DNA from: Sulfobacillus thermosulfidooxidans
Lineage (GTDB): Bacteria > Bacillota > Sulfobacillia > Sulfobacillales > Sulfobacillaceae
DNA: 64,000 nt
NCBI RefSeq assembly: GCF_001280565.1
Contig: NZ_LGRO01000001.1
Location: 1,240,001-1,304,000, forward strand
Reading direction: 5' to 3'
Shown piece by piece: positions 1,599 to 10,120 of this stretch; the first letter of the stretch is position 1, and each line of letters opens with the position of its first letter. A program made the translations under genes and the position numbers. The notes below the pieces were generated by a model. The model worked only from the letters and a program-made list of their open reading frames with translations. It was not told where the DNA came from and searched no databases.

Positions 1599-2348
1599 TC
1601 ATTGAGTCAACCATTCTTCAAGTTGCTTAGGATTCAGGCAATAACGTCCCCAACCGTGAGGGCCTCGCCCAAAGGCCGGATTTTTGTAGGTTCCAATACC
1701 TGTCAAGACGCCTAAGGCATCTGGGAAACTTTGATGGTAAGTCCAAATATTCATAGTGACAACAGTTGGAATACCCGCTTGTCTTGCAGCCATTAAACCG
1801 ACGGCAGAGTCTTCAAAGGCCACGGCCTCATCTGGAGCCACTCCTAAGCGCTGTAAACATTCGTGGTAAACGCACGGATGCGGTTTTTTCTGTACCACAT
1901 GATCGCCGGCTACGACGACCGGAAAAATCTTCCGCCACTGCGGACCAAAATGTGTTATCAGCAACGCCTCGACATTGGCATATTGCGTCGTCGTTGCTAT
2001 CGCCACCGGAATATGCTGTTCGTAACACGCCGAAATTAGGGATCGAACGCCAATACGGAGTGGAATAGCGCCGGCCCGAACTCTTTGAATAAAAAGCGAT
2101 GTCTTGACCTGGTGGATTTCAGCAATTTGCGCAGCGGACAGGGGAACCCGTTCGGGATGCAGCATTTGATAATAGGCTAAACGTTCTTGTCCTCCGGGTA
2201 TTTTTAACAACTCTCGATACAATGATATGGACCACCTAAATGGCAACTTCCACTGTTGAAATACATGATTAAATGCCCACAGATGGCCATCTAATTCAGT
2301 GTCTGCCAAAGTGCCGTCGACATCAAATATCACACTTTTAAGAACCAT
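1599..2348 (-). CDS. HAD-superfamily hydrolase, CbbY/Gph-like
   Basis: A 249-residue cytoplasmic haloacid-dehalogenase phosphatase of the CbbY/phosphoglycolate phosphatase type. Motif I is FDVDGTLADTE at residues 8-18 with the nucleophile Asp and the acid/base Asp two residues later. Motif II is the IATTT stretch near residue 117, motif III Lys lies in KKPHP near 154, and motif IV is FEDSAVG near 178. The all-helical cap occupies the region after motif I. It follows the formate-THF ligase gene by 6 bases and is probably cotranscribed with it. In autotrophs such enzymes remove phosphoglycolate or xylulose bisphosphate, but the substrate here is not determined. Confidence 0.85.
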   Translation of the reverse strand: MVLKSVIFDVDGTLADTELDGHLWAFNHVFQQWKLPFRWSISLYRELLKIPGGQERLAYYQMLHPERVPLSAAQIAEIHQVKTSLFIQRVRAGAIPLRIGVRSLISACYEQHIPVAIATTTQYANVEALLITHFGPQWRKIFPVVVAGDHVVQKKPHPCVYHECLQRLGVAPDEAVAFEDSAVGLMAARQAGIPTVVTMNIWTYHQSFPDALGVLTGIGTYKNPAFGRGPHGWGRYCLNPKQLEEWLTQ

Positions 2349-2354
2349 AAGGCA

Positions 2355-3995
2355 TCACTCTATCCCTGTGATCATGCCGTCATCACCGACATGAACCCGG
2401 TATGCCGCAGGATCTTTAGGCAATCCTGGCATACGAATCATATCTCCTGCTAATGGCACAATATACCCCGCCCCACGAGCAATATCGATATCACGTATCG
2501 TCACACGAAATCCTTCAGGGCGTCCAAGAAGTTTGGGGTTGTCACTTAAAGAGTATTGAGTTTTGGCAATGCACACCCGCAAATGGTCTTCTCCCCAAGT
2601 ATGCAAACGATCCAATGTTTTTAAGGCGGCTGGGGCGTAATCCACGCCGATTCCCCCATAAATTGAGGTAACAATTTTTTCGATTTTCTCTTCTAATGAT
2701 TCGGTCTCTTCGTAAAGCGGAGCGAAGTGACTGTTCGATTCATCCAACTGCTGCATCACCAGGTGTGCTAGATGTTCTCCTCCGAATCCTCCCTGCCCAA
2801 AAACATCAGCCAAGGCCGCAGGAACACCCTGATCAGCTAACTCTTTCAGTAACCACTCGATTTCTTCAGGGGTATCCGCAGGAAACTGATTAATTGCCAC
2901 CACCATCGGCAGTCCAAAATGACGCAAATTCTCAAGGTGCTTATTCAAATTGGCCATACCCGCATGTAATGCGTGCAAATTAGGGCGATTAATCTCTTTT
3001 AATGATTGTCCACCGTGATAGCGGAGAGCACGCAAGGTCACGACCACTACAGCCAGGTCCGGCGACAAATTCGCTTCAGGAGCTTTAATGTCAAGAAATT
3101 TTTCTGCCCCCAAATCCGCTCCAAAACCAGCCTCTGTAATAACCACGTCCGAGAATCGCAAACCCGCTTCTGTGGCCACAATGCTATTACATCCGTGTGC
3201 AATATTGGCAAAAGGACCACCGTGCATAATAACGGGCGTCTGTTCACGCGTTTGAACCAAATTGGGCATCATAGCCTCATCCAAAATAGCAGTCAATGCA
3301 TCCTCAGCACCAAGATCAGCCACAGTAATCATATCATGGCCTTGACTCGCAATGACCATTTTACTAAGCCGTGTTTTAAGGTCCGCTAAATCACGGGCCA
3401 AGGTCAGAACGGCCATTACTTCGGAGGCTGCTGTAATATCAAAGCCGGTTTCGCGCACCACACCTTGTCCCGGTCCGCCAAGTCCGACAATGACATGGCG
3501 TAAAGCGCGGTCATTGACATCTAGAACACGTTTCCATAAAACGCGCTTAGGATCCAGTTGAAGACGACTGCCGTGGAATAATTCATTGTCAATGAGGGCC
3601 GCTAAAAGATTATGGGCGGCTGTAATCGCATGAAAGTCACCAGTAAAATGAAGATTGATGGCGGTCGAGGGTTCCACCCGGGATGCGCCTCCACCTGTTG
3701 CACCGCCTTTCATACCAAAAGTTGGTCCCATAGAAGGTTCACGCAGCACGGCTGTAGCGTTAACGCCTATCCGGTGAAGCGCTTGAGATAAACCTACAGA
3801 CATGGTTGTTTTGCCTTCTCCTGCGGGCGTCGGATTGATCGAGGTGACCAGGACTAATTTCGCACGACGGGGTTGTTGATAAACAATGTCCAATGGAATT
3901 TTGGCTTTAAACGTACCATATTGGATAATGTCGGATACGGATAATCCGATTTTCGTAGCAATTTCGGTAATCGGCTTCAAATCTTGACTCATCAT
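2355..3995 (-). CDS. fhs: formate--tetrahydrofolate ligase
   Basis: ATP-dependent ligation of formate to tetrahydrofolate, giving 10-formyl-THF for purine and one-carbon metabolism. The P-loop-like segment TSINPTPAGEGKTT and the family signature GMKGGATGGGASRV are both present, and the C-terminus ends in the usual RMPGLPKDPAAY region. I place the start at the ATG giving MMSQDLKPITEIA, matching the usual N-terminus (KPIxEIA) and preceded by AGGGGC; an upstream in-frame GTG would add 12 residues. The length of about 546 residues is normal. The HAD gene follows within 6 bases. Confidence 0.93.
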   Translation of the reverse strand: MMSQDLKPITEIATKIGLSVSDIIQYGTFKAKIPLDIVYQQPRRAKLVLVTSINPTPAGEGKTTMSVGLSQALHRIGVNATAVLREPSMGPTFGMKGGATGGGASRVEPSTAINLHFTGDFHAITAAHNLLAALIDNELFHGSRLQLDPKRVLWKRVLDVNDRALRHVIVGLGGPGQGVVRETGFDITAASEVMAVLTLARDLADLKTRLSKMVIASQGHDMITVADLGAEDALTAILDEAMMPNLVQTREQTPVIMHGGPFANIAHGCNSIVATEAGLRFSDVVITEAGFGADLGAEKFLDIKAPEANLSPDLAVVVVTLRALRYHGGQSLKEINRPNLHALHAGMANLNKHLENLRHFGLPMVVAINQFPADTPEEIEWLLKELADQGVPAALADVFGQGGFGGEHLAHLVMQQLDESNSHFAPLYEETESLEEKIEKIVTSIYGGIGVDYAPAALKTLDRLHTWGEDHLRVCIAKTQYSLSDNPKLLGRPEGFRVTIRDIDIARGAGYIVPLAGDMIRMPGLPKDPAAYRVHVGDDGMITGIE

Positions 3996-4200
3996 CACTA
4001 ATCGGCCCCTATATGCTGTATTTAACACCACCGTTACTATACCCTAAGATGGCAATCGTTGACGAATTCTTGTAAGGAGAGCACTTTTAAATTTGCGGTG
4101 TCTTGGTCGGTGCGTGCGGTTAGGTCTTTCTAAAATGGGAATAATGACGCAAGATGCCATAATGAAGAGGTTCACGACATGGCAAAGGAGGTCATAGCGC

Positions 4201-6007: not shown

Positions 6008-6796
6008 ATGGCTGAACCTTATTCCGTCGGGCATCGGATACGATTTTATCGCGAACACTTGGGATGGTCACAAACACAATTAGCACGCAAAGTTGCACTA
6101 TCACAAAAACAGCTTTCGCGGATTGAACAATCCCAAGTCATGGACTTATCCCGTGATTTGGTCATTCTTATTGGACGAGCGTTAAAACAGCCACTCATCA
6201 ATGGCGAGTTGAATCAATGGCTGTATCATTTCGGTTATCGCGGTTATGTTGAACCTTTGTTGGATTTACCGGACGAATACCGTTTATGGCTATCCCGTTT
6301 TGATCCCTTTCCTGCCGCCCTTTTAGATATCGGGTGGTTTCTTAGGGATTGGAACATGACGATGGCGCGTCTTTTTCAGGTGCCACAGGGAGCCTTACAG
6401 GGTCTGGAACGAAATTTAATTGTGCAATTATTTGCTCCCGATGCTCTTTTGGCCGAACAGTGGCCAAAAGAATTGTTGACACGGATGTTGCATCGTCTCC
6501 TCGTACAATGGCAACCCTATGAAAATGAACCCTGGCTTACCCGCTTAAAAGACGATATTTCTCGGCGAACAAAGATACCGTGGGAGACACTGATTAATAC
6601 CTATTGCCAGGCGCTAATGGGAACTATTCCGTCCACATCTGAAGTCGTCGTTCTAAGAGCTCATGATGATCATCGGATTTTGCGTTTTCGTTCCAATTTG
6701 GTGCCTGTTCCTAATCGCCCTGATCTGATTATTACGCATTACTATCCGATTGATGTGGTCACAGAAAAATGGTGTTGGCAAGACTTTAGCGGGTAG
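6008..6796 (+). CDS. XRE-family regulator with MmyB-like ligand domain
   Basis: A 262-residue DNA-binding protein. Residues about 8-60 form a lambda-Cro-type helix-turn-helix (GWSQTQLARKVALSQKQLSRIEQ). The remainder contains WFLRDWNMTMARLFQV and RNLIVQLFAPDALL, which match the PAS-like ligand domain of MmyB-type regulators, including the RNLL..F segment. I use the ATG at 6008 because it directly precedes the HTH; the ribosome site AAGGAGG is 17 bases away, longer than usual, and an open frame extends upstream to 5828, so the start is uncertain. The next gene, 69 bases downstream on the same strand, is the candidate selenoprotein, a plausible target. Confidence 0.75.
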   Translation: MAEPYSVGHRIRFYREHLGWSQTQLARKVALSQKQLSRIEQSQVMDLSRDLVILIGRALKQPLINGELNQWLYHFGYRGYVEPLLDLPDEYRLWLSRFDPFPAALLDIGWFLRDWNMTMARLFQVPQGALQGLERNLIVQLFAPDALLAEQWPKELLTRMLHRLLVQWQPYENEPWLTRLKDDISRRTKIPWETLINTYCQALMGTIPSTSEVVVLRAHDDHRILRFRSNLVPVPNRPDLIITHYYPIDVVTEKWCWQDFSG

Positions 6797-6865
6797 ATGA
6801 CGGTCAGATTGTCAAAAGCTTTCGTGCGAAAAATCAAGGCATTTAGAACAAGGAGATATATATCC

Positions 6866-7504
6866 ATGTTTCTTGATCCCCAACAAGAAAAAACCGTGAT
6901 GGACAGTCTTTCAACATTACCGAATCCGGTAATTCTTACCGTACACAGCGAGCAATGGGAAAGTGCAAAAACGCAAGCTACCCTCGACTTGGTTAATTAT
7001 ACCGTGAGTCTCATGCCCCAAAAAATTATGCGCCAACTGGCTACGACCGATCAGGCACAAGTTTTTGATCCCACTGTGACTATTAGCAATGGCCTAGGCC
7101 GTACCTTTGGCATCCAATTTGTGGGAGCGCCTAGTGGCATGGAATATGCTGCTTTTATTGAATCCATTGCCGCATTTAGCCGGCTTTCACCGCCTGATCA
7201 CCCGTCATGGGAACGTCTACTGCATGAAATCCAGCGACCGGTGATGGCTAAAATCTTTGTCTCTCCGACGTGAACCCGGTGTCCCCATGTCGTGAACATG
7301 GCCATTGCATTTGCTATCCGGCAACCCTTGATCCATGCTCAAATCATTCAAGTGGAAGACTTTCCCGAGTTGGCACAAAAACACCACGTTATGGGAGTTC
7401 CCACAACGTGGTGCGAACCCGGACCCTATGTCTTTACCGGTACGGTATCTCCAGAATATTTCGCGGCTTACCTCATTCAAGCATCGATGTCTGCGTCTCC
7501 TTAA
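6866..7504 (+). CDS. candidate selenoprotein: two-domain glutaredoxin-like disulfide oxidoreductase (in-frame UGA)
   Basis: If the TGA at 7271-7273 is read through, one 212-residue protein results, the normal size of the tandem-thioredoxin-fold protein disulfide oxidoreductase (PDO) family. Domain 1 (about 1-108) ends in FGIQFVGAPSGMEY, the PDO cis-Pro region, but has lost its CxxC. Domain 2 (about 125-212) has KIFVSPT, then UGA-T-R-C-P at 136-140, where the family has the TCPYCP active site, and VMGVPT (175-180) with the cis-Pro. The UGA therefore replaces exactly the nucleophilic first Cys, giving UxxC. Frames before and after are identical (6866 and 7292 are in phase). The start ATG follows AAGGAG by 10 bases. 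The alternative is a nonsense mutation. The 3' end overlaps the convergent DMT gene by 32 bases. Confidence 0.7.
7276..7306 (+). promoter_or_regulatory. candidate bacterial SECIS hairpin
   Basis: Immediately after the UGA the message can form CCAUGU/ACAUGG (7285-7290 with 7296-7301), a perfect 6-bp stem closing the loop CGUGA, with a weaker lower stem GGUG/CAUU (7278-7281 with 7303-7306). The loop begins 17 bases after the UGA and has G as its second base, followed by U. As I recall the published bacterial SECIS model, it requires a short stem, a small apical loop with G in its first two positions, and a UGA-to-loop distance of about 16-37. All are met. SelB binding is not shown. Confidence 0.55.
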
Positions 7505-8712: not shown

Positions 8713-9069
8713 TTACTTGACAACTTTCCCGGGCCATTTCATCATGCCCCCCACCATATTGCGAACGGTGAAGCCTTCAGCACGCAATAACCGGGCTGCT
8801 TGTGCACTCCGGCGACCTGAGTGGCACACGGTGATGATGGTGGCATCCTTTTTCAATTCATGCAGGCGCTTATTTAACTCCATCAAAGGAATCAATTGGG
8901 CTCCTTTTATATGACCACTACGGTACTCATGCTGTTGGCGAACATCGAGGATGACAACCTTCTCACCTTGTTCGAGTAACGCGATCACTTCTTCGGGCAT
9001 TATCGTAGCGGGGACACGGGGTGTTGTATTTTCCCGACGCTTGCCGATGAGCCATTCTAACATGTCCAT
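8713..9069 (-). CDS. rhodanese-domain sulfurtransferase
   Basis: A 118-residue single-domain rhodanese. The CH2A-like box is LDVRQQHEYRSGHIKGA, and the active-site loop is VCHSGRRSAQAA (Cys at about residue 82), followed by the C-terminal GGMMKWPG motif. The N-terminal 25 residues begin with a hydrophobic stretch but are too short for a confident signal. It would carry persulfide sulfur in the cytoplasm. It lies between the small membrane protein and cysteine synthase on the same strand. Confidence 0.88.
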   Translation of the reverse strand: MDMLEWLIGKRRENTTPRVPATIMPEEVIALLEQGEKVVILDVRQQHEYRSGHIKGAQLIPLMELNKRLHELKKDATIITVCHSGRRSAQAARLLRAEGFTVRNMVGGMMKWPGKVVK

Positions 9070-9163
9070 CCATCCTTTCTTTCCGGTATTCCATCTGCTC
9101 TTTCGCTATGAAATCTTTAAATATCATTGTATCATTCAAGCAAGCGACTTTTAACCGCTCCTA

Positions 9164-10120
9164 TCATTGAAAAAATCCATCGCCATGTCCATGACCATGG
9201 AAAATGCTGCTGAGATAATTACGCCCTGTATCCGGCGCAAGAGCCACGATTAAAGCGCCGGGATTTAATTCCCGAGCAATCTTTAAGGCAACATGTACCA
9301 TAGCTCCCGAAGAACCTCCCGCCAAAATTCCTTCCTCCCGCGCTAATCGCCTTGTCATGTCAAAAGCTTCTTCGTCAGAGACCGCTATCCAGCGGTCAAC
9401 CACACGCATGTCCAGGGTTTGGGGATAATAATCCTCCCCCATACCTTCTAACTTAAATGGTGCTACAGGCCCCGTAAAAATCGAACCGACCGGATCCGCA
9501 CCAATTACTAAGATGTTCGGATCTTTTTCTTTCAAATAGCGCCCAATGCCTGTAATCGTTCCACCAGTACCCGCTCCAGCCACAACGGCACGCACCTGTC
9601 CTTCAGTTTGTTCCCAAATCTCAGGACCAGTCGATAAATAATGGGCATGGGGATTGGCCTCTTGTTCAAACTGGCCCATATAACATCCCCCTGGAATTTC
9701 TTCTGCTAACCGTTTTGCCACATTTTGGTAGTTGTTTTCGTCGTCACGACCAACATCTGGGACAATTTTCACTTCGGCTCCGTAAGCTTTAAGAATCGCA
9801 ATTTTATCTGCGCTCATCTTATCTGGCACAACAAACAAGGCGCGGTAGCCCTTGACGGCTGCCACCATTGCTAAAGCAATGCCTGTGTTACCCGCGGTGG
9901 CTTCGATTACGGTTCCCCCGGGTTTTAGGCGGTGTTCTCGTTCTGCCACCTCGATTAACGCCGGCGCAATGCGGTCTTTAATGCTACCTCCAGGATTTAC
10001 GGCTTCAAATTTAATGGCAATACGAACGCCATTCTCCGGTACGATCCGTTGTAATGCGATCAGGGGCGTATGCCCTATCGCCCCGAGGATATTCGGTAAG
10101 ATGCTGCCCTTATCAGGCAT
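9164..10120 (-). CDS. cysK: cysteine synthase / PLP-dependent beta-synthase
   Basis: A 318-residue PLP enzyme of the O-acetylserine sulfhydrylase/cystathionine beta-synthase fold. The Schiff-base Lys is in GGSIKDRIAP (about residue 47), the substrate loop is EATAGNTGIALA, and the phosphate-binding glycine loop is GAGTGGTITGIGRYL. The C-terminus has AGGSSGA. It makes cysteine from O-acetylserine and sulfide, although CBS-type activity cannot be excluded. The C-terminal tail ends in an unusual His/Gly-rich stretch (FHGHGHGDG). It lies 94 bases upstream of the rhodanese gene. Confidence 0.9.
   Translation of the reverse strand: MPDKGSILPNILGAIGHTPLIALQRIVPENGVRIAIKFEAVNPGGSIKDRIAPALIEVAEREHRLKPGGTVIEATAGNTGIALAMVAAVKGYRALFVVPDKMSADKIAILKAYGAEVKIVPDVGRDDENNYQNVAKRLAEEIPGGCYMGQFEQEANPHAHYLSTGPEIWEQTEGQVRAVVAGAGTGGTITGIGRYLKEKDPNILVIGADPVGSIFTGPVAPFKLEGMGEDYYPQTLDMRVVDRWIAVSDEEAFDMTRRLAREEGILAGGSSGAMVHVALKIARELNPGALIVALAPDTGRNYLSSIFHGHGHGDGFFQ

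Follow-up and report, generated by a model that had tools for sequence, protein, structure and literature searches.

An in-frame UGA in Sulfobacillus thermosulfidooxidans predicted to encode selenocysteine at the active site of an AhpF-N-terminal-domain/PDO-like oxidoreductase

Within a window of 64,000 nucleotides from the genome of Sulfobacillus thermosulfidooxidans, a gene on the plus strand (6866-7504) runs from an ATG at 6866 to a TAA at 7502-7504, and the sole in-frame stop codon before that end is a TGA at 7271-7273 (codon 136). When this TGA is translated as U, the gene encodes a two-domain thioredoxin-fold oxidoreductase of 212 residues, an assignment that draws on Pfam, TIGR02187 and a structural model. 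A Shine-Dalgarno sequence (AAGGAGAT, 6850-6858, plus strand) was identified by direct reading, and a purine-rich stretch matches its place in most orthologues of the genus. The TGA takes the place of the first cysteine in the CxxC motif of domain 2, in the context SPT-U-TRCP, just where the earlier note on this DNA had placed it. On the same strand it is followed by the codons for Cys139 (7280-7282), the resolving cysteine, which is invariant in the alignment, and Cys183 (7412-7414), which lies four residues past the cis-proline (P179) and is common to all genus orthologues. These two are the only cysteines of the protein; domain 1 has neither a cysteine nor a CxxC motif. Shortly 3' of the TGA there is a bSECIS-type hairpin (CCATGT-CGTGA-ACATGG, 7285-7301, plus strand), with a G in its apical loop at 7292, 18 nt past the UGA. 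Upstream, an MmyB-like XRE transcription regulator is encoded in the same direction (6008-6796, the start at 6008 being estimated), with matches to the Pfam families MLTR_LBD and HTH_31 over their cut-offs. Scans of the coding strand for promoter and terminator consensus sequences gave nothing above shuffled sequences. Calling the UGA as a plain stop would cut the protein before its active site.

Reading such a codon as selenocysteine involves dedicated machinery, and the earlier note had suggested searching the genome for selA, selB, selC and selD. All four are present in the assembly (3.83 Mb in three contigs, 99.98% complete): a tRNA-Sec with a UCA anticodon scores over the Rfam cut-off, and selA, selB and selD are matched with 557, 361 and 362 bits, respectively. 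The selD gene itself carries an in-frame UGA within the motif SGUGC, the usual selenocysteine site in SelD. There is no further UCA anticodon among the other tRNAs scanned, and UGA is the ordinary terminator for 19 of the 50 long open reading frames of the window; a UGA that encodes selenocysteine therefore needs a local signal.

These observations also bear on the possibility that the UGA is read as some other amino acid, whether by general read-through, as tryptophan, or as cysteine through a tRNA-Cys that resembles tRNA-Sec. A long-arm tRNA-Cys does exist in the genome, and cysteine at the UGA would preserve the active site too, but the anticodon of this tRNA is GCA and not UCA, UGA functions as a normal stop, and the genome combines a complete selenocysteine system with a bSECIS-type hairpin. 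We consider this explanation very improbable; partial insertion of cysteine at the UGA under low selenium is possible. The tRNA concerned is a second tRNA-Cys (L002:1501-1593; G000:C1:2157494) that scores over the Rfam tRNA-Sec cut-off. Its variable arm is long, its acceptor stem measures 8 bp, and it carries U73, as judged by eye. The selC*-type tRNA-Cys, described from anaerobes in the review PMC7609411, is similar to it. Matches that score like it are found in genomes G001, G003 and G004, and a normal tRNA-Cys is also present in the genome studied here (L102:1595-1669). In one draft genome (G006, 96% complete) the orthologue has the TGA, yet no tRNA-Sec scores above the cut-off; an assembly gap is the likely cause, and loss of the selenocysteine system a possible alternative.

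The two same-phase frames on either side of the TGA had been taken in the earlier note as parts of one protein, and several lines of evidence bear this out. Following the TGA, the frame stays open for 76 further codons, compared with a median extension of 10 codons for the TGA-terminated long open reading frames of the window, and the one other such frame that stays open simply runs on into the gene that follows it in phase; the interruption is therefore not a matter of chance. In that other case, on the minus strand at 1599-4031, formate-THF-ligase-like and HAD-like neighbours (named by inspection) share a phase with a TGA between them, and a candidate read-through gene was rejected there in favour of two genes. 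When the gene of interest is compared with its orthologue in G003, dN/dS is 0.06 after the TGA and 0.18 before it; values before the TGA for G002, G005 and G001 were saturated or misaligned by indels and were left out. The part downstream of the TGA is under purifying selection.

Such an arrangement might instead consist of two distinct genes, or the stop might be a deliberate one that yields a truncated one-domain product, and an open reading frame of 70 residues could, in theory, begin at a GTG (7292). The product of this downstream frame would be without half of a thioredoxin fold, including the first strand and the resolving cysteine, and the orthologues in G001 and G004 that have cysteine in place of the UGA are each encoded in one uninterrupted frame; we attach next to no weight to this explanation, and a single gene containing an internal UGA is the reading preferred here.

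Orthologues of this single gene were found in seven of eight genus genomes. The TGA is conserved in five of them (the present genome, G002, G003, G005 and G006), and G001 and G004 have TGC or TGT, so that the alignments called for in the earlier note, for cysteine at this position and for conservation of the UGA in relatives, both gave positive results. The homologous motifs with cysteine are CMRC (L014) and CTRC (L015). Two additional copies with TGA occur in G002, one perhaps without its start, and a single-sequence scan of the genome contigs returned two genus loci only. In a phylogenetic tree, the proteins form a clade of 22 members (support 100/100), 20 with selenocysteine and two with cysteine, which is separate from the classical seleno-PDO. 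Beyond the genus, all clade members examined have the TGA, both in the rest of the family and in a second family of the order. The two cysteine forms are a sister species pair (98/95) nested among the selenocysteine forms, and these relationships would most simply be explained by one change from selenocysteine to cysteine. They provide a clean natural experiment, in which the same genomic place holds either selenocysteine with a hairpin or cysteine without one.

The argument for the hairpin rests on covariation and on the joint evidence, since a single sequence proves nothing in this respect: folded singly, the hairpin is no more stable than shuffled sequences (z 0.2), and pairing is already favoured by the protein sequence, so that random synonymous codons give all six pairs in roughly 2-26% of trials, and in about 25% for the single sequence. 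Among 17 UGA homologues, all 102 of 102 pair cells are standard, with 13 cells changed on both sides and two stem pairs showing two-sided, compensatory changes; sliding the pairing partner by one to three bases leaves 15-35% of cells paired in the same sequences. Furthermore, all six pairs occur in exact register in 22 of 25 UGA sequences as opposed to none of five cysteine sequences, and the stem is broken in both cysteine orthologues. The three exceptions among the UGA sequences (L028, L030 and L034) are PDO of another branch, which may use a shifted hairpin instead. The stem codons (P-H-V-V-N-M) are identical in the five genus orthologues with UGA, and most other residue-conserved codons past the stem vary synonymously among them. 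The RNA structure thus constrains the choice of amino acids, to H..NM (CAT/ATG) or Q..HL (CAG/CTG).

A nonsense mutation or sequencing error in a decaying or misread gene would look the same if the TGA were alone in one isolated genome, but this explanation, which the earlier note had also argued against, is refuted by the same TGA in independent genomes that span several genera within the family and extend to a second family of the order, is opposed by the purifying selection past the TGA and the covarying hairpin, and retains virtually no probability. Selenocysteine at the nucleophilic position, as the earlier note proposed, is the reading on which the machinery, the exchange of UGA and cysteine, the hairpin and the selection agree. 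On this sequence evidence, the TGA at 7271-7273 almost certainly codes for selenocysteine at the active site. We are highly confident in the prediction that the gene encodes a selenoprotein, an AhpF-N-terminal-domain/PDO-like oxidoreductase with the domain-2 site Sec136-Thr-Arg-Cys139.

The 212-residue protein scores over the cut-off for Pfam Thioredoxin_3. It matches TIGR02187 along its full length (E 1.3e-32), with a score of 112.9 bits that lies below the curated cut-off of 185 bits. An AlphaFold2 model (pLDDT 91, pTM 0.88) has a two-domain thioredoxin fold, which resembles AhpF N-terminal domains as closely as it does PDO (Z 25.7-26.5 over about 200 residues). The description of the protein in the earlier note as a two-domain relative of PDO is therefore right with respect to the fold, but it does not extend to a two-site PDO. 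With PDO (1a8l, 2ayt) the protein shares the fold along the whole length (Z about 26), but PDO has CxxC in both domains, and here the first has been lost and the second is UxxC. In AhpF, the sole active site is located in the second sub-domain. The N-terminal domain of AhpF (1zyn, 4xvg, 6il7) is alike in fold (Z about 26) and in this single site, but the Sulfobacillus protein stands alone, without the flavin reductase part, and has selenocysteine for cysteine. It belongs to the PDO/AhpF-N-terminal-domain structural superfamily, with tandem thioredoxin folds and the active site in the second, and because domain 1 has neither CxxC nor cysteine, its sequence identifies it as a one-active-site form whose layout has more in common with the AhpF N-terminal domain than with the classical two-site PDO.

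The suggestion in the earlier note that a selenocysteine-containing PDO had not been described proved wrong. A selenocysteine form has been in the literature since 2006; it is listed as a 'homolog of AhpF, amino-terminal domain' in PMC1794560, and the 'Homolog of AhpF N-terminal domain (Grx-like domain protein), TIGR02187, UxxC' appears in PMC9312934 and PMC13188914. Published examples are from Carboxydothermus (ABB15282.1) and Symbiobacterium, and the NCBI name of the TIGR02187 model is PDO_seleno_TRX. The Sulfobacillus protein has in common with this family the two thioredoxin-fold domains and selenocysteine for the first cysteine of the domain-2 CxxC; it differs in its own well-supported clade, its cysteine-free domain 1, the motif UTRC in place of UPYC, and the extra Cys183 in the genus. 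Three paralogues in the same genome pass the TIGR02187 cut-off (202, 208 and 186 bits), and since the present protein remains below it, the view that this is a new, divergent branch within a selenoprotein family already described from 2006 onwards, and not a new kind, is well supported. Two of the paralogues are seleno-PDO with an in-frame TGA (UPYC and UPHC; L054:3353-4006, and L056, minus strand, about 3150-3815), and the third (L055) is a cysteine form with CRWC. A mention of selenocysteine-containing formate dehydrogenases (PMC4378227) was all that the literature search on Sulfobacillus selenoproteins yielded.

By analogy with these families, the protein most likely acts as a relay in disulfide or peroxide reduction, with Sec136 as nucleophile, Cys139 as resolver and partners that we infer. 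SelB and Sec-tRNA-Sec would recognize the hairpin, leading to insertion of selenocysteine at the UGA. The selenolate of Sec136 would then attack a disulfide or an oxidized (seleno)peroxiredoxin, in line with the established chemistry of the AhpF and PDO families, the resulting mixed selenosulfide would be resolved by Cys139, and the protein would be regenerated by a thioredoxin-reductase-like flavoenzyme. Domain 1, with its active site lost, may have a scaffold or docking function like that in AhpF.

The adjacent MmyB-like regulator probably controls expression of the gene. Six of seven genus genomes have it upstream, as do G008 and G009, in which much of the gene order around the two differs, and this retained position suggests regulation of the seleno gene. 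A more tentative proposal, which we think somewhat unlikely to hold in full, is that a lineage-specific selenocysteine subfamily (the Sulfobacillus family and one related family), with a degenerate domain 1 and a place beside the MmyB-like regulator across genera, might form a regulated seleno-redox module with a substrate of its own, as opposed to a generic PDO, and that Cys183 by the cis-proline might join the redox cycle in the genus. The gene order shared within the genus comprises the regulator, the seleno gene, an EamA transporter, a small uncharacterized protein, a rhodanese and a cysteine-synthase-like enzyme. The last two (rhodanese and PALP, 8713-10120 of the window, minus strand) are found near the seleno gene throughout the genus and partly beyond it, and these surroundings possibly represent a sulfur-metabolism neighbourhood.
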